Shown piece by piece: positions 149-8,688 of a stretch of DNA of 64,000 nucleotides. A program made the position numbers and the translations under genes. Source of the stretch: Streptomyces sp. NBC_00440 (GTDB lineage: Bacteria; Actinomycetota; Actinomycetes; Streptomycetales; Streptomycetaceae); NCBI RefSeq assembly GCF_036014215.1, contig NZ_CP107921.1:4905501-4969500 (forward strand), given 5' to 3'. How positions within the stretch are numbered: position 1 is the first letter of the stretch; the number at the start of each line of letters is the position of its first letter. The notes under the pieces are model-generated. The model searched no databases, was not told the origin of the DNA, and saw only the letters and a list, made by a program, of their open reading frames with translations.

Positions 149-1300
149 TCATACCGGGGCACTTCCCGAAGGGGGGTGCGGGGGCATGGGAGGTGCCGGG
201 GGTGTCTCGCGCCCGTACGTGCCGGGAGCGCCGGGGGCCGGCGGTGCGTCCTGGGGGCTGTCCGGTTCCGGCGTGCCGTAGGTCGGCCTGGAATCCTCCC
301 CGGTCGGCAGCGCCTGTGCCTCGCCGGGCATGGGCGGTGGGGCCATGCCCGGCCCCACCTGCTGGCGGATGAGATTGTTCACCACGCGCAGCGCGTACTT
401 GGCCGACTCCGCCTTCTGGTAGTCCTCCAGGGCGTCCCCGCCGATCAGTTCGAGCTGGCTCTGGATGAGAGAGAGCTGGTCGTGGCGGATCCCGCTGGTG
501 GCAGCCTGGGTGTCCTCCGGATGCTGGGCGAGGTGCAGAGCCCAGGCGGCCACCCCGCCGTGCTGAAGATGGAACTGGTAGAACTCGATCTTCTTGGCCA
601 TCAGTTCGTGCTCATTGCGCAGCTGCATCGCTTGCAACTCGTGTTCCTGCTGCGCCAGCCGCATCCGGTACTCGTGCTCCGGGGCGAGCATCTCGTTCTC
701 GTACCGCAGATCCCGCTTGCGGCGGCGGTGGGCGATCGCCTCCTCGTCCTGGCGCATCCTCACCGTGCAGGTGACCTGGATGCCGATACCGGCGGCGAAG
801 TCGACCGTCTGCAGTTCCTTCTGCACGGCGGCCTCGGCCCCCGCACTGTCCTCGATCGGGTACCGGCGGCCGACCGGCCGGGTGAGCTGCTGCAGCTCCC
901 TGGTGAGCCGGGCCGGCACATCGCGTTCGCCGGAGGTCACGAAGCGGACCGGATCAGCGACCCGCCAGGTCAGATCGGCGCTCACACCGAACGAGAACGC
1001 GTCGTCATCGCTGGGCAGTTGCACCTCCAGCTGGACGCTGTGGCTGCCCGTGTCCACTTCGTACACCGAGGTGTAGCGGCGGCTCGCGGCCTCCGAGCGG
1101 GTGGGCCGGTGCGGCGGCAGGAAGGCGTCGTACTCACCCTTCGCCGTGGTGAAGACCAGCGCGTGGTCGATCGCGGTCATCGTCCTGCGGGCCGTGTAGT
1201 CGAACCGCGAGATGGGCCGGTACGTGAGCACGGGGTCGATCAGATGGCTGTGCCGGTCGGCGTTCTGCTGCCACTCCGGCTGACGGCGGAAGTCCGCCAT
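149..1300 (-). CDS. SPFH/Band 7-like coiled-coil protein
   Basis: A 383-residue cytoplasmic protein with no signal peptide or membrane span. Residues about 75-180 are beta-rich and read like an SPFH/Band 7 core (SVQLEVQLP, then a VSADLTWRVADPVRFV stretch). Residues 183-245 are a highly charged helix likely to form a coiled coil, and the tail from about 318 is Pro-rich. I chose the ATG at 1300, which has GAGGAG nine bases upstream, over an in-frame TTG at 1309 that would sit against that site. It is the last gene of a minus-strand cluster, 47 bases after the P-loop gene, so co-transcription is likely. SPFH proteins assemble into rings or scaffolds, often at membranes; a scaffold role here is inference. 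It lacks the Gly-rich motif shared by its two neighbours. Confidence 0.72.
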   Translation of the reverse strand: MADFRRQPEWQQNADRHSHLIDPVLTYRPISRFDYTARRTMTAIDHALVFTTAKGEYDAFLPPHRPTRSEAASRRYTSVYEVDTGSHSVQLEVQLPSDDDAFSFGVSADLTWRVADPVRFVTSGERDVPARLTRELQQLTRPVGRRYPIEDSAGAEAAVQKELQTVDFAAGIGIQVTCTVRMRQDEEAIAHRRRKRDLRYENEMLAPEHEYRMRLAQQEHELQAMQLRNEHELMAKKIEFYQFHLQHGGVAAWALHLAQHPEDTQAATSGIRHDQLSLIQSQLELIGGDALEDYQKAESAKYALRVVNNLIRQQVGPGMAPPPMPGEAQALPTGEDSRPTYGTPEPDSPQDAPPAPGAPGTYGRETPPAPPMPPHPPSGSAPV

Positions 1301-1347
1301 GCGGGTCAACTCCTCGATGGATCTGATGGAAAGACGGACATCCCGGC

Positions 1348-3525
1348 TCAGGCACTCCGCGGATTGAGGACCGACAGCAACCGGTCGGCGATCCGGGGAC
1401 GCTCCGGTGAGCCGTCCGCGGACCGCAGCGTGCGCAGCAGGTGGTCCAGCCTGCCGTGGTCGGCGGCCGTGGTGACCAGCTCCGGAAGCAGCAGGGTCAG
1501 CGCCTGTCCGGCGTCGGGCCGGCGCTCACCCGCGTACAGCCAGGTCCGCAGGGCGTCCAGCGCCGCCTTGGTGTGTGCGCGGTCCCCCAGGGCGGTGCGC
1601 CACAGCATGGCCAGGTCGCGGGCCGGGCCCGCGTCGTAGCTGCCGGACTCGGCGTACCAGTCGACCAGGCTGCCCTCTTCGTCGCTTTCGCAGGCGCGCA
1701 CGAAGGCGGCGAGGGCGAGCCCGCGGACCGGAGCGGTGTCCTGGAGCAGCCTGACGAGCTCGGCGAGCATCTCGCCGCGGTTTCCGCCGGAGAGCAGGAG
1801 CGCGGTGGACTCCGTGAGATTGCGGCTCTCCGCCGGGCTGCTGTCCTCGGCTCTGGCGCGGGCCGCGAGCGCCTGGAGCGCCGGCGCCGCCAGGTCCGGG
1901 CGCACCGGAGCGAGCAGCGCGAACGCCCGGATGGCGGTCCAGCGGCGGGCCCAGTGCGCGTCGCCGCACCACTGCGTCAGCAGCCGCAGGATCGCCGGCG
2001 CTTCCAACAGCTGGGCCAGGGTCAGGGCGTTCGCCGCTGTCACCCGGGGGCCGAAGGAGCGGGAGAGCGCCCACCCGTCGACCAGGGCCGCCATCGCCGA
2101 CGGCAGATCGGCGGCCGCCAGCATCGCGGCCGCGGCCGCCGCCCGGGTGCGGACCATCGGACGGCCGTCCCTGGCGAGCTGTTTCAGCCAGTCCACCAGG
2201 GCGGGGCGCGCCGAGGGGTGACCGGTCCACACCTCGGTGAGCAGGGTGTGCGCGGTCCGCGGCTCCCGGAAGTGCGCCAGATACTGCGGGACGGGCCCCC
2301 AGTCGGTCGATTCGTTACGGGTCACGCCCTCGGCGCGGGCCAGGGCGAGCCGGTCGGACGCCGACGGTCCGAAGACGGGGATCGCGGGCTCCTGCTCGGG
2401 ATGCTGGAGCCGCTGGAGGTTGACGAAGAGCCGGTCGCCGAGCTCGGCGGCCAGGACGTACGGAGCGCCGTCAAACACGGAGAGTGAGATCAGGAATGCC
2501 TTGTCCCGCAGCCCCAGTTCGCTGTCCGGGGCACTCAGCCAGTCGCGGCACTGCTTCTCCACCGCGCTGAGACTGAAACCCGCGAGCCCTGCGAGCGCCG
2601 CCGCGGTGCCGTCGTACTCGGCCAGCCTTCCGGCGAATTCGGCGGCCTCGGCGCACCGGTGATGGCCGTGCGCCAGGAACTCCCGCACCGGGTCGAGCGT
2701 CAGCAGCCGCTCGGTCTCCGCGCCGCCGGTCTTCCGCGCGGCGAGGAAGGCCCGCAGCACCTCCTCGGCGGGCGGCGGCTCCCAGCAGAAGGGCGTGACG
2801 CCCGGCAGGTACGGGGACGCTTCGACGGTGATCACCAGATAGCCGTCGTCGAACTGCTTGAGCCGGTCCGCCGCCGCGTACAGATGGGCGTCCCGCAGCG
2901 GCCTGTTGCGGCTCAGCGGCATGTCGCACAGCACATGCCCGCCGGAACCGGTCAGCTGGGCGGGCAGCGCCGAAGGGCCGGTCTCCGGTTGCAGCGCCCG
3001 GACGGTGGGCACGCCCAGCCGGTCCAGCAGCATCAGCGCCGCTGTCCGGCGGCCGGTCGCGTGCTGACCCGACAGTACGAGGACCCGCTCGGTGCGCAGG
3101 CGCTCCAGGGCGGCCGCGAAGGACGGGCCCTCGACGAAGTCGCCGGACAGGCGGTCCAGTTCCGTGCGGGGGATCTCCCCGGCGGAGTGGACGGAACCGC
3201 CGGCCGCTGAGGTGTGGTGGTGGATCTCGGTCTTGCCGCCCAGGAAGACGTCGCCCGCGACCTGGCCACCGGATACACCGTGCTGCGCCCCGCCGACCAG
3301 GGAGCCGCCGAAGGAAGCCGCCGATCCGAGGATGAACTCCGGTGCGTGGGCGAAGAGTTCGCGTTGTGCCGCGCGTGCCTCCTGGGACCGTTCCTCCGGC
3401 TCGCCGGGTTCGGTGGGCTGCGCGGGCCCGGCGGGGCGGCTGTCGCCGGGCGGTGGCTGCGGTGCGTCCGGTGCGGCCGCGCGCTGCGGGCCGGGGACGG
3501 GCGGCGGCGGTGCTGTTGTGCTCAC
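1348..3525 (-). CDS. P-loop (STAND-like) protein with Gly-rich motif and helical repeats
   Basis: A 725-residue protein. Residues 1-60 are Pro/Ala-rich and disordered-looking. Residues 72-97 form a Gly-rich motif (FGGSLVGG, QHGVSGG, GDVFLGG). Residues 148-165 give a Walker A-like loop, GQHATGRRT, where the usual Lys is Arg. Residues from about 400 are Ala/Leu-rich helical repeats of HEAT type (WTAIRAFALL, RTRAAAAAAML). The architecture resembles a STAND/NLR sensor: signalling motif, NTPase-like domain, repeat sensor. The GTG start overlaps the stop of the upstream cyclase-like gene as GTGA, so the two are translationally coupled. Its motif matches 22 of 26 positions with one at the cyclase-like protein's C-terminus. 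Whether it binds or hydrolyses NTP is uncertain given the Arg substitution. Function unknown; a sensor or regulator of the cyclase is inference. Confidence 0.75.
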   Translation of the reverse strand: MSTTAPPPPVPGPQRAAAPDAPQPPPGDSRPAGPAQPTEPGEPEERSQEARAAQRELFAHAPEFILGSAASFGGSLVGGAQHGVSGGQVAGDVFLGGKTEIHHHTSAAGGSVHSAGEIPRTELDRLSGDFVEGPSFAAALERLRTERVLVLSGQHATGRRTAALMLLDRLGVPTVRALQPETGPSALPAQLTGSGGHVLCDMPLSRNRPLRDAHLYAAADRLKQFDDGYLVITVEASPYLPGVTPFCWEPPPAEEVLRAFLAARKTGGAETERLLTLDPVREFLAHGHHRCAEAAEFAGRLAEYDGTAAALAGLAGFSLSAVEKQCRDWLSAPDSELGLRDKAFLISLSVFDGAPYVLAAELGDRLFVNLQRLQHPEQEPAIPVFGPSASDRLALARAEGVTRNESTDWGPVPQYLAHFREPRTAHTLLTEVWTGHPSARPALVDWLKQLARDGRPMVRTRAAAAAAMLAAADLPSAMAALVDGWALSRSFGPRVTAANALTLAQLLEAPAILRLLTQWCGDAHWARRWTAIRAFALLAPVRPDLAAPALQALAARARAEDSSPAESRNLTESTALLLSGGNRGEMLAELVRLLQDTAPVRGLALAAFVRACESDEEGSLVDWYAESGSYDAGPARDLAMLWRTALGDRAHTKAALDALRTWLYAGERRPDAGQALTLLLPELVTTAADHGRLDHLLRTLRSADGSPERPRIADRLLSVLNPRSA

Positions 3526-4415
3526 GGTCGCCCGGTCCCCTCCGGCTCGCCCCTGCCACCGAGGTGTACGTCGCCGGTCACCGTGCCGCCGGAGACCCCG
3601 TGCTGGTCACCGCCGACCAGGCTGCCGCCGAACCGGGGAGCGCCCGCACCGAAGTTGAAGACGGCGCCGGCGCTCCTCGCGCTCCCGGCGCTCACTGGGC
3701 TTCCCGGGCTCGCTGTGCTGGCTGTGCCCTGAGTGGTCTCGCCGGGCCGGGACGCGGGGTCCTGGTCCGGCGCCGGGCGGTCCCCCGATCCGTCCGGCGC
3801 CGGAGTCTCTGCCGTGCCGGGCCCTGCCGTCCCGCCAAGCCCGGTGCTTGGCACCGGCCCGTGCAGCCAGGCCGCCAGCGGCCCGTTCTTGCTGGCCGCG
3901 GTGATGGCGTGGAAGGCGTTCCTGGGAATGCCGGGGTGGTCGTGCCGGACGATCCCGTCGTGCACGCTCTGCGCGACACAGAGCGCGAAGTCGTCGGAGC
4001 GCTCCCGCAGGGCGGCTCGCAGCACCTCCGCGTCGAGCAGCCGGCAGGCGTGGTTGAGGTCGGCGCCCACCCAGCCGTGCTGGTCGATCGCGACGTACCC
4101 GGTGGAGACCACGGCACGCAGCCGGATCTGCGCCGAGCGGGACGCCATCCGGTTCACCGCGCGCAACTGGGCCGGCACCTCGGTCAGCAGCGCCCGCAGC
4201 AGCGCGGTCACCGAGGCGTTGGCATCGATCAGTTCCATCACGGAGTCACCGCGGTCGGCACGCAGCCGGTACGTCTCGTCGATGCCGGCGCTCTCCAGGG
4301 CACGGTCGGCGATGCCGTACAGCATGCGCCGCAGGTACGCCTGCTCGATGTCGTCCCGGTCGCTGTACTTCTCGATGTCCAGCAGCAGGATCGTCCGGCT
4401 CACGGGATCGTTCAT
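3522..4415 (-). CDS. Class III nucleotide cyclase-like protein with C-terminal amyloid-like motif
   Basis: A 297-residue protein. Residues about 8-185 look like a class III adenylate/guanylate cyclase homology domain. The two metal-binding Asp positions are present (D13 in LLLDIEKYS, D57 in RADRGDSVMEL), as is the Asn/Arg transition-state pair (N121 and R125 in GADLNHACRLL). Residues 190-255 are a Pro/Gly/Thr/Ser linker, and residues 262-287 repeat the Gly-rich motif of the next protein. I chose the ATG at 4415 because GAGAGG sits five bases upstream; a GTG at 4421 lacks spacing. It is coupled to the downstream P-loop gene by a 4-base overlap. The product nucleotide cannot be read from sequence. 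It may be a true cyclase or a nucleotide-binding relic. A Crp-like regulator lies just upstream, which suggests a cyclic-nucleotide circuit. Confidence 0.75.
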   Translation of the reverse strand: MNDPVSRTILLLDIEKYSDRDDIEQAYLRRMLYGIADRALESAGIDETYRLRADRGDSVMELIDANASVTALLRALLTEVPAQLRAVNRMASRSAQIRLRAVVSTGYVAIDQHGWVGADLNHACRLLDAEVLRAALRERSDDFALCVAQSVHDGIVRHDHPGIPRNAFHAITAASKNGPLAAWLHGPVPSTGLGGTAGPGTAETPAPDGSGDRPAPDQDPASRPGETTQGTASTASPGSPVSAGSARSAGAVFNFGAGAPRFGGSLVGGDQHGVSGGTVTGDVHLGGRGEPEGTGRP

Positions 4416-4502
4416 GGTCACCTCTCGGGTGGTTTTCCGGCGTGGGCAGCAGCTTGGGCTCTGCGAGGCCGCGGTGGTGAGGGCGCCTGACGCACTGGGA
4501 GT

Positions 4503-4547: not shown

Positions 4548-5291
4548 TCAGTCAGCGGTTCCCGTGCGCCGGCCGTCCACGGCGGGCTGTCCGGCGCGCG
4601 TGATCAGGCGCAGCACATCCGGCCGGGTGATCAGCAGAGTCCGTCGCCCGGTGACCACGGCTCCGCGCTCCCGCAACTCCTTGAGCAGCCGCTGGACCAT
4701 CTCCCGTGAGGCGCCCACGGAGCCCGCGAGCTCCTGTTTGCTCAGCGGGACGGTCAGCTCGATTCCCTCTTCGGTGCGCCGGCCGTGCGTACGTGCGAGG
4801 TCGAGCAGCAGCACGGCGAAGCGTTCCCGCACGGCCATGGAGGCGAATTCGAGCCGGCGCCGGTCCGCGGCGCGGGTCCGGTCCGACGCCAGCCCGAGGA
4901 GGGCGAAGGAGATGGCGGGGGAGCGGCCGAGGAGCCCGGTGAAGCGCTCGTGCTCGACGGCCACGGCGCGGACCGGCTCCAGCGCGGTCACCGTCGCCGA
5001 GCGCGGGCGGCCGGTCAGCGCGGCGGACTCGCCGATGACGTCGCCGGGGCCGCGCAGGGCGAGCAGGGCCTCGTACCCGTTGGCAGCCGAGGCGGTGACC
5101 TTCGTCCAGCCGGTCAGGACGAACAGCACATGGGAGGACGGCTCGCGCTGGTGGAGCAGGGTGACTCTGGGTGCGAAGGCCAGTTCATGGCCGAGCGCGA
5201 GCAGCGCCGCCCGGTCCTCGCTCTCCAGCCGGGCCAGAAACGGAACGCGGTCGTCCAGTCCTCCGTCGGCGGGTAAGTACGCTGCTGTCAT
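4548..5291 (-). CDS. Crp/Fnr-family transcriptional regulator
   Basis: A 247-residue regulator. Residues about 17-130 are a cyclic-nucleotide-binding-type beta roll with a phosphate-binding-cassette-like segment (GDVIGESAALTGRPRSATVT, containing G87-E88 and R97-S98). Residues about 150-230 are a winged helix with recognition segment SKQELAGSVGASREMVQRLL. Length is slightly above the usual 220-230. It is transcribed toward the nucleotide-cyclase-like gene 132 bases away, with a Crp-type box in the gap, so a cNMP-responsive autoregulatory or feed-forward loop is plausible. It is divergent from rpsL, sharing the 384-base spacer. The conserved Gly-Glu and Arg-Ser positions leave cNMP binding possible, but ligand identity is inference. 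Confidence 0.88.
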   Translation of the reverse strand: MTAAYLPADGGLDDRVPFLARLESEDRAALLALGHELAFAPRVTLLHQREPSSHVLFVLTGWTKVTASAANGYEALLALRGPGDVIGESAALTGRPRSATVTALEPVRAVAVEHERFTGLLGRSPAISFALLGLASDRTRAADRRRLEFASMAVRERFAVLLLDLARTHGRRTEEGIELTVPLSKQELAGSVGASREMVQRLLKELRERGAVVTGRRTLLITRPDVLRLITRAGQPAVDGRRTGTAD

Positions 5292-5455
5292 ATCGGCCCC
5301 CGAATCAGCACAGCGGATCGATCAACGTAGCCGACGGAGCGGTGCTCCGGGTCCGGGAGGGCCGGGATGATCTCCGAACCGGCAGGTCCGGGCCGCGGGA
5401 GGGGCCGCGGCGGAGGGGTGACATCTCCGGTGCGTCACGGCCCGGGGCATTTGTT
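5292..5455. other. Divergent spacer between Crp-like gene and rpsL promoter
   Basis: Non-coding GC-rich spacer separating the minus-strand Crp-like gene from the plus-strand rpsL promoter. It must contain the promoter for the minus-strand cluster, but I cannot assign a convincing -35/-10 pair on that strand. Confidence 0.4.
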
Positions 5456-5484
5456 TTGACCGCAGTCGATGCGGTAGGTACGCT
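5456..5484 (+). promoter_or_regulatory. rpsL operon promoter
   Basis: TTGACC (5456-5461), a 17-base spacer, then TACGCT (5479-5484) make a strong HrdB-type promoter. Transcription would start near 5491 and leave a leader of about 185 bases before the rpsL GTG. That leader contains the hairpin element at 5611-5630. Confidence 0.75.
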
Positions 5485-5603
5485 CTGACCTTGTGCCTGG
5501 GGTGTGCCCTGGCTCCTGTGCGTGTCTTCAACCGCATGACGAGCTGTAAGTGACCACCGCAATCTGTGCCCTTCCCGCCACTTCGGCGGGGGTCTGCAGT
5601 ATT

Positions 5604-5630
5604 CGACACACCCGACCGCGTGGGTCGGAG
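5604..5630 (+). promoter_or_regulatory. Leader hairpin element shared with rpsJ leader (copy 1)
   Basis: The 20-mer CCCGACCGCGTGGGTCGGAG, preceded by CGACACA, occurs 46 bases before the rpsL start. CCGACC can pair with GGTCGG around GCGTG. The same 27-base block with a single change is found at 16019-16045 in the rpsJ leader. The position within the 5' UTR of two ribosomal operons suggests an RNA regulatory or processing element; no protein ligand is evident. Confidence 0.6.
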
Positions 5631-5675
5631 TGGTTCCAGGTTAGTTCTACACGGCACACAGAAACCGGAGAAGTA

Positions 5676-6047
5676 GTGCCTACGATCCAGCAGCTGGTCC
5701 GGAAGGGCCGGCAGGACAAGGTCGAGAAGAACAAGACTCCCGCGCTCGAGGGCTCGCCCCAGCGTCGTGGTGTCTGCACCCGTGTCTTCACGACCACCCC
5801 GAAGAAGCCCAACTCGGCGCTCCGCAAGGTCGCGCGTGTTCGTCTGACCTCCGGCATTGAGGTCACGGCCTACATCCCGGGTGAGGGACACAACCTGCAG
5901 GAGCACTCGATCGTGCTCGTGCGTGGTGGCCGTGTGAAGGACCTGCCCGGTGTTCGCTACAAGATCATCCGCGGTTCGCTCGACACCCAGGGTGTCAAGA
6001 ACCGCAAGCAGGCCCGCAGCCGCTACGGCGCCAAGAAGGAGAAGTAA
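5676..6047 (+). CDS. rpsL: 30S ribosomal protein S12
   Basis: A 123-residue S12 lining the decoding centre of the small subunit. The conserved core [19 protein letters not shown] and the loop [14 protein letters not shown] are intact; the Lys residues at which streptomycin-resistance mutations arise carry wild-type residues. The GTG start follows GAAACCGGAG with normal spacing and gives the expected N-terminus ([12 protein letters not shown]). It is the first gene of the rpsL-rpsG-fusA-tuf unit, two bases before rpsG, behind the promoter at 5456 and a structured leader. Confidence 0.97.
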
Positions 6048-6049
6048 GA

Positions 6050-6520
6050 ATGCCTCGTAAGGGCCCCGCCCCGAAGCGCCCGGTCATCATTGACCCGGTC
6101 TATGGTTCTCCTCTTGTCACCTCGCTGATCAACAAGATCCTGCTGAACGGCAAGCGTTCCACCGCCGAGCGGATCGTGTACGGCGCCATGGAGGGCCTTC
6201 GCGAGAAGACCGGCGCCGACCCGGTCATCACGCTGAAGCGCGCGCTTGAGAACGTCAAGCCGTCTCTTGAGGTCAAGTCCCGCCGTGTCGGTGGCGCCAC
6301 CTACCAGGTGCCGATCGAGGTCAAGCCCGGTCGCGCCGCCACCCTCGCGCTGCGCTGGGTCGTCGGCTACTCCCGCGCCCGTCGCGAGAAGACGATGACC
6401 GAGCGGCTCACCAACGAGCTGCTCGACGCCTCGAACGGTCTTGGCGCTGCCGTCAAGAAGCGTGAGGACACCCACAAGATGGCCGAGTCCAACAAGGCCT
6501 TCGCGCACTACCGCTGGTAG
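6050..6520 (+). CDS. rpsG: 30S ribosomal protein S7
   Basis: A 156-residue S7, the usual bacterial length. S7 nucleates assembly of the 16S rRNA 3' (head) domain and lies at the exit side of the decoding region. The N-terminus [11 protein letters not shown] and the conserved stretches [13 protein letters not shown] and [15 protein letters not shown] are present. It starts two bases after the rpsL stop, which implies translational coupling, and is followed 38 bases later by fusA, matching the ancient str operon order. In enteric bacteria S7 is the autogenous repressor of this operon; whether that holds here cannot be seen. Confidence 0.97.
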
Positions 6521-6558
6521 TCGCTACCCACATCGAGACCGAGAGAAGATTGAGCCTT

Positions 6559-8688
<2,130 letters not shown>

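Follow-up and report, generated by a model that had tools for sequence, protein, structure and literature searches.

The window studied here, that is, the whole stretch of 64,000 nucleotides (nt) analyzed from Streptomyces sp. NBC_00440 (contig NZ_CP107921.1, positions 4,905,501-4,969,500), contains two overlapping genes whose products, a class III nucleotide-cyclase-like protein and a P-loop/HEAT protein, share a Gly-rich motif of 26 residues. Across orthologous loci, the two copies of this motif change in step. This co-change suggests a self-recognizing plug, through which the P-loop/HEAT protein, as a receptor, turns on a signal that is read by the neighboring regulator. The reading that we favor, at a probability of roughly 0.6, is an amyloid-type signalosome in which the effector, the cyclase-like protein, produces a second messenger that is read by a dedicated Crp-type regulator within a cassette of four genes.

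Motif pair in two overlapping genes

The genes and motif copies are as follows.

3522..4421, minus strand: class III nucleotide-cyclase-like protein, 299 residues (catalytic domain at about 1-190, variable Pro-rich tail, motif)
3555..3632, minus strand: C-terminal motif copy, in the cyclase-like protein (residues 264-289 of its 299-residue open reading frame [ORF]), kept in homologues
1348..3525, minus strand: P-loop/HEAT protein, 725 residues (disordered N-terminus with motif, STAND-like P-loop domain at about 120-300, HEAT-type repeats at about 424-720)
3235..3312, minus strand: motif copy of the P-loop/HEAT protein, near its N-terminus (residues 72-97), kept in homologues
3522..3525, minus strand: 4 nt shared by the end of the cyclase gene and the beginning of the P-loop gene

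The two copies are identical at 22 of 26 positions. An alignment of the cyclase with the P-loop protein by BLASTP gave an E value of 9e-12 over a segment spanning the motif and the Pro-rich linker, and the remaining segments were at chance level. Local alignment of both protein ends scored 148. When these ends were shuffled 5000 times, the scores averaged 49.9 and never exceeded 91; a chance match was thus ruled out. These data bear out an earlier note on this DNA, which had described a shared 26-residue Gly-rich motif in otherwise unrelated proteins, placed at the C-terminus of one and the N-terminus of the other in adjoining genes. Its position for the cyclase copy (262-287) holds if translation starts two codons later than in the 299-residue ORF.

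The motif is widely kept in homologues of both proteins. QHGV or QHGI was found in 117 of 120 cyclase homologues (the best 120 of 804 matches) and in 105 of 120 P-loop homologues (the best 120 of 462 matches). Thirteen of the 15 P-loop homologues lacking it have near-variants (QYGV, QHVV, NHGV, HHGI, QHAV, QHGGI), and in the other two the protein begins downstream of the motif. Both copies lie in low-confidence, probably disordered stretches, in which the predicted local distance difference test (pLDDT) value of the models is mostly below 50; this includes residues 69-113 of the P-loop protein (pLDDT < 50).

Motif types match between partners across species

As orthologous loci we took the best 80 of 139 confirmed Streptomyces loci, 75 of which were compared as pairs; the other five have no P-loop gene on the contig and were left out. 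Covariation of the two motifs across genomes, anticipated by the earlier note, was observed, since the partners agreed in motif type in all 75 pairs. The types found were QHGVSGG (type A, 55 pairs), GGISGG (7), QNNxxGN (6), HHGISGG (2), NHGIGGG (2) and NHGxS[AT]G (2). In Streptomyces cylindrosporus (L082), the motif is gone from both partners and both domains are kept, which amounts to one joint loss. In a tree built from both domains without the motif (73 loci; a quick method, with some long branches), seven type changes were required. A further pair, formed by P0107 and P0141 of the same organism, has QYGVSGG in both proteins.

The motif types were defined after the sequences had been seen, but the alignment scores are independent of them. 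Local alignment of the cyclase tail with the receptor head gave 114.9 in true pairs, and the highest value among 20000 shuffles was 99.5. For type A alone (55 pairs), the partner score was 119.7, and shuffles did not exceed 116.6. Two copies that stem from one duplication and then evolve independently should not resemble each other more in partners than in non-partners, and this excess therefore argues against independent evolution. The true partner came out ahead of all others in only 13 of the 75 pairs, as expected because many pairs have one type in common. At the level of residues, 1084 of 1326 cells were identical between partners in the 51 ungapped type-A pairs (at most 1035 in 5000 shuffles), and columns 4, 5, 7, 23 and 24, but not column 9, matched the partner's residue well above expectation.

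Two irregularities were seen among these loci. One pair (L049, approximately 1-1313) shows a single-residue mismatch in the core, with QTGVSGG in the cyclase and QHGVSGG in its partner, and in L041 and L032 the P-loop gene is seemingly broken across two reading frames, which reflects a sequencing error or decay.

Occurrence of the motif and selection acting on it

In a profile search of the window genome, in which 150 of 240 first-look candidates were scored, only the two motif copies were retrieved at E ≤ 1, in line with the earlier note's expectation that the motif is not widespread in unpaired proteins. The possibility that it is common in unpaired Streptomyces proteins was rejected after a search of 150 genomes (at most 49 first-look candidates scored per genome), which returned weak extra matches. 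Inspection of 20 weak or borderline places identified 16 as frames with VDHHAVGGGRVAGDVVLGGV-like stretches, covering motif positions of about 8-33, and four as true pairs (L117, L119, L120, L121). The frames that mimic the motif (L102-L116, L118) are probably shadow frames of one conserved gene. Another weak place, in genome G097 and outside those 20, was later found to lie in a true pair (L162).

The cyclase tail is Pro-rich and measures between 49 and 221 residues in the 75 loci, with the motif at or near its end. The ratio of nonsynonymous to synonymous substitution (dN/dS, pooled pairs) was 0.30 for the motif in the cyclase and 0.55 for that in the receptor, versus 0.19 for the cyclase domain. 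The motif is thus under purifying selection, although the surrounding stretches are probably disordered and the tail varies in length.

Five plasmid records were examined out of 11 with a cyclase relative. In all five, the relative (27-58% identical) has neither the tail nor the motif; the protein ends right after the domain, and no P-loop protein is present within about 5 kb. These tail-less relatives (L154-L158) are located on Streptomyces plasmids, and two of them (L154, L155) are near a gene of the Phd/YefM antitoxin family. The cyclase was not found in phage records, nor the motif in viral contigs, and searches of PHROGs, NCBIfam and the sequences of solved structures yielded nothing informative.

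The cyclase-like protein

The following catalytic positions were located in the cyclase-like protein; the roles of the metal-binding Asp residues and of the transition-state residues are those of established class III cyclase chemistry.

4377..4379, minus strand: first metal-binding Asp, D15 (80/80 orthologous loci; 19/20 distant loci, the other being a gap)
4245..4247, minus strand: second metal-binding Asp, D59 (80/80 orthologous and 20/20 distant loci)
4041..4055, minus strand: transition-state NxxxR, N123 and R127 (R127 in 80/80 orthologous and 20/20 distant loci; N123 in 80/80 and 9/20)

The domain is predicted with block-mean pLDDT values of 78-94 up to residue 190. A Foldseek search with this model retrieved class III nucleotide cyclases, with 2w01 as the best match (E value of 2.2e-9; TM score of 0.65, relative to the length of the target) and numerous other cyclases among the matches. 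The earlier note's assignment of the effector as a nucleotide cyclase is therefore supported at the level of the predicted fold. Searches of Pfam, NCBIfam and PADLOC with the protein gave no match of note, and Pfam finds no cyclase family in it; a relationship to the DUF2652 cyclases (PMC4886424) was also considered, but their Pfam family has no match to the protein at E ≤ 1. Judged from the alignment, the protein keeps the catalytic metal and transition-state residues of class III cyclases, and K178 is likewise invariant in the 80 orthologous loci. Its substrate is uncertain, because the residues that a hand alignment places at the usual base-choosing positions are Ala (A55) and Gly (G116). 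Position 55 is Glu in 12 of 20 distant cyclases.

The P-loop/HEAT protein

Among the structural matches to parts of the P-loop protein model are AAA-type P-loop chains and HEAT chains. Its top Foldseek match was the STAND-like protein SAMD9 (E value of 2.9e-6, TM score of 0.18). STAND/NLR chains were absent from the 50 VIA-align rows listed for this protein, which is no evidence against such a fold. The Pfam family nSTAND3 scored 19.3 bits, below its cut-off of 27.2; among four more distant receptors it scored 22.9, 23.9 and 16.6 bits in three and was not detected in the fourth. PADLOC returned one match, OloA, with an E value of 0.0087 and with no stretch passing alone. The loop at the Walker A site is as follows.

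3049..3069, minus strand: Walker-A-like GxxxxGR, with Arg in place of Lys (Arg in 72/75 orthologous loci)

The pattern GxxxxGK[ST] was seen in 1 of the 75 loci, and in two neither form of the loop was found; some distant receptors keep the Walker A Lys. Because nSTAND3 stays below its cut-off and the Walker Lys is mostly Arg, the protein can be called STAND-like at most.

The neighboring genes and linkage of the Crp-type regulator

The pair is flanked by two conserved neighbors, which the earlier note had not pointed out.

4548..5291, minus strand: Crp/Fnr-type regulator, encoded upstream of the cyclase and in the same orientation (Pfam cNMP_binding, 4.9e-18; HTH_Crp_2, 1.9e-14)
149..1309, minus strand: SPFH/Band 7 protein, encoded downstream of the P-loop gene (Pfam Band_7, 2.6e-05)

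The order in the 80 orthologous loci is Crp-type regulator, cyclase, P-loop protein and SPFH protein, with rpsL and fusA beyond the Crp-type gene on the other strand. The Crp-type gene lies upstream of the cyclase in 75 of the 80 loci, the remaining five contigs beginning at the cyclase; similarly, the SPFH gene adjoins in 74, and the remaining six contigs stop before it. By its sequence, the upstream gene is predicted to encode a Crp/Fnr regulator with a cyclic nucleotide-binding domain, a helix-turn-helix and an intact ligand pocket: in its phosphate-binding cassette, G87, E88, R97, A99 and T100 are present in all rows and S98 in 95%.

The Crp-type regulator largely appears and disappears together with the cyclase-receptor pair. 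Ten genomes without the pair contain only a Crp that is 34-35% identical, whereas two genomes that do have it contain Crp proteins of 84% and 79% identity, the latter from an incomplete gene at the edge of its contig. A close Crp orthologue is present in 30 of the 150 genomes sampled, and these 30 include all 21 genomes with clear motif matches, using cut-offs that were chosen by eye (motif matches outside shadow frames; Crp E < 1e-50, plus the partial gene of G017). The nine close-Crp genomes without a clear motif match include one with a true pair (G070, L117) and six with a cyclase (L159-L164).

Distant cyclase-receptor pairs

We also inspected 20 more distant cyclase loci (24-35% identical), in which a Crp-type gene is present within 1.5 kb in 17 and a related P-loop protein adjoins in 11. 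Conversely, 19 places without a previously known pair were picked from 52 Crp-type places listed; a cyclase directly adjoins in 16 of them, 14 of which also have the P-loop protein. For 30 divergent pairs, from 44 loci examined, partner similarity was 56.0, as compared with at most 42.5 in 20000 shuffles, and the true partner ranked first in 11. Pair by pair, 12 of 26 divergent pairs reached 10 in 1000 shuffles or better, at least one of them aided by low-complexity stretches (L171). Different matched motifs are seen in L126 (GPTSFGGHAAGRDV/GPVSFGGHAAGRDV), L168 (SNQIYDGNTF/DSQIYDGNTF) and L164 (QYGQAGGTHHGDQRF/QFGQTGGYHYGDQHF). The order of Crp-type gene, cyclase and receptor is therefore broader than the window family, and a shared motif is detectable in about half of the distant pairs.

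In three loci (L122, L140, L141), a segment is common to the cyclase and a small neighboring protein, the neighbor having been chosen after the match was seen. In L122 (G000:C1:4804000-4816000, 5285-6783), the genome's second, distant cyclase adjoins a divergent Crp-type gene, and its C-terminal segment GVVYATQNGNQNIN is paired with GTVFAVQGGDQPVH in the small neighbor; L140 and L141 have VQHGDxHxH-like segments likewise. Related cyclases from organisms of another family within the same taxonomic order (L123, L124, L125, L127) carry a different conserved C-terminal segment, with GPVAVLLADEASLLDELAGLGVRTVVLVGG; a Crp-type neighbor is present, and a P-loop partner was not detected.

Proposed mechanism and alternative explanations

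In the signalosome that we propose, the cassette would comprise the Crp-type regulator, the nucleotide cyclase, the STAND-like HEAT receptor and the SPFH protein. The receptor would sense a cue, perhaps through its HEAT repeats, and oligomerize, so that its N-terminal motifs are clustered. Once clustered, these motifs would become ordered, probably as a cross-beta (beta-arch) structure, and would impose that structure by templating on the C-terminal tails of the cyclases, bringing the cyclase domains together. Class III cyclases act as dimers with shared active sites, and clustering may for this reason switch them on. The Crp-type neighbor would then read the cyclic nucleotide and change transcription, and motif matching within a genome would serve as a private address for the pair. 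Self-recognition, the direction of signaling, catalysis, which nucleotide is made, the genes it would act on and any part played by the SPFH protein are inferred; the amyloid form of the motifs is suggested by layout, disorder and composition.

Several observations weigh against this signalosome. The shuffle tests ignore relatedness among species, and 14 of the 26 divergent pairs miss 10 in 1000 shuffles (e.g., L135, L137, L172, L173, L174). No amyloid-motif family of Pfam matched the window proteins or 20 motif rows. In the cyclase, the positions that usually confer purine specificity read, by hand alignment, as Ala and Gly instead of Lys/Asp or Glu/Cys, and Arg replaces the Walker Lys in 72 of 75 orthologous receptors. 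In two of the nine close-Crp genomes without a clear motif match (L165, L166), the cyclase is absent beside the Crp-type gene. Finally, gene conversion accounts for part of the motif matching, although not for all of it. Codon identity at matching residues was 0.766 in partners versus 0.713 in within-type shuffles, the proportion of synonymous differences (pS) was 0.273 in partners versus 0.326, and codon identity in the motif far exceeds the 0.47 expected from codon usage elsewhere in both genes. Because partners have more synonymous codons in common, local gene conversion probably helps to spread changes. That the matching is due only to such conversion between neighboring homologous segments, and is itself functionless, is nevertheless improbable: of the 22 identical residues in the window pair, just 13 also have the same codon, and from non-partners to partners the proportion of nonsynonymous differences (pN) drops by about a third (0.177 to 0.120) and pS by about a sixth (0.326 to 0.273). 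Purifying selection, the joint loss in S. cylindrosporus and the motif-free, partnerless plasmid cyclases also point to function.

Two other explanations concern the nature of the motif and of the output. Gly-rich GDVxxG stretches would suit beta-solenoids too, and the motif might be a non-amyloid element for homotypic or heterotypic binding, such as a small beta-helix or beta-augmentation, whose role would resemble that of an effector-associated domain, only much shorter. However, Q, N, G and V abound in variants such as DQNNVTGNQVSGDV (L060), and letters of this kind are seen in amyloid signaling motifs. With effector-associated domains, as described in PMC7159879, an equivalent genetic logic is obtained without amyloid, but layout and length agree with the bacterial amyloid signaling pairs of PMC7889193, and we regard the non-amyloid element as possible, if rather doubtful. 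Alternatively, the cyclase-like protein might be a catalytically dead sensor or scaffold, with the Crp-type gene answering another source of cyclic nucleotide. Its unusual base-recognition positions would agree with this, as would the inactive cyclase domains reported in related systems in the excerpt seen of Kaur 2020 (PMC7159879). With both metal Asp residues, the transition-state Arg and K178 invariant in all 80 orthologous loci, and with a close Crp orthologue that tracks the cassette, we consider a dead cyclase unlikely.

If the signalosome reading is true, the outcome would be directly measurable in harmless soil bacteria, as nucleotide and at target promoters, because a cyclic nucleotide is the likely output and its dedicated reader gene adjoins. 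The natural series of matched motif types provides ready specificity swaps with which to ask whether templating needs a sequence match. A bolder and quite tentative extension is that receptor-cyclase-Crp signalosomes form a large, so far undescribed class in Streptomyces and related actinomycetes. Their prion-like motif, which diversifies fast and matches itself, would be a private address through which receptor polymers template cyclase polymers; an amyloid switch would thereby lead to second-messenger synthesis and transcription rather than to cell death, with matched types insulating parallel pathways.

Comparison with known systems

Bacterial amyloid signaling (BASS) pairs were reportedly described by Dyrka and colleagues in 2020. 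Such pairs consist of a Bell effector and an NLR protein in the parts consulted of PMC7889193, PMC8086366, PMC12261475 and PMC9815663, with the motif at the effector C-terminus and the receptor N-terminus and with adjacent or overlapping genes (PMC7889193). The layout here is the same, as the earlier note had recognized, and both occur in filamentous actinomycetes. They differ in that the effector here has a cyclase fold and lies beside a Crp-type regulator, whereas BASS effectors in those parts are usually Bell and sometimes CHAT or TIR, and in that the receptor is STAND-like with HEAT-type repeats. RHIM, PP and HET-s share the general logic of templated recruitment, but the window motif has no Pfam match to any of them.

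Pycsar systems consist of a cyclase plus a TIR or transmembrane effector. The class III cyclase fold is common to both (the uridylate cyclase 8jsz is at Foldseek rank 45), but the neighbors here are Crp-type, P-loop/HEAT and SPFH genes without a cognate TIR or transmembrane effector, and PADLOC finds nothing for the cyclase. A further precedent concerns the effector-associated domains (EADs). In the passages seen of Kaur 2020 (PMC7159879) and 2021 (PMC8195603), cyclic nucleotide cyclases are coupled to NTPase cores by a shared adaptor domain, and CRP-like regulators as well as Band 7 domains are linked to some of these systems. The earlier note's suggestion that a nucleotide cyclase as partner would be new does not stand, as a general idea, in view of these passages. 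Both arrangements have a homotypic module on an NTPase core and on a neighboring enzyme, sometimes a cyclase, with adjacent copies most alike. EADs, as portrayed there, are small and mostly helical domains, whereas the module here is a short motif, about 26 residues long, that lies in low-confidence protein ends and switches type between species. The open-access literature searched yielded no cyclase coupled by a short motif of this matched and fast-changing kind.

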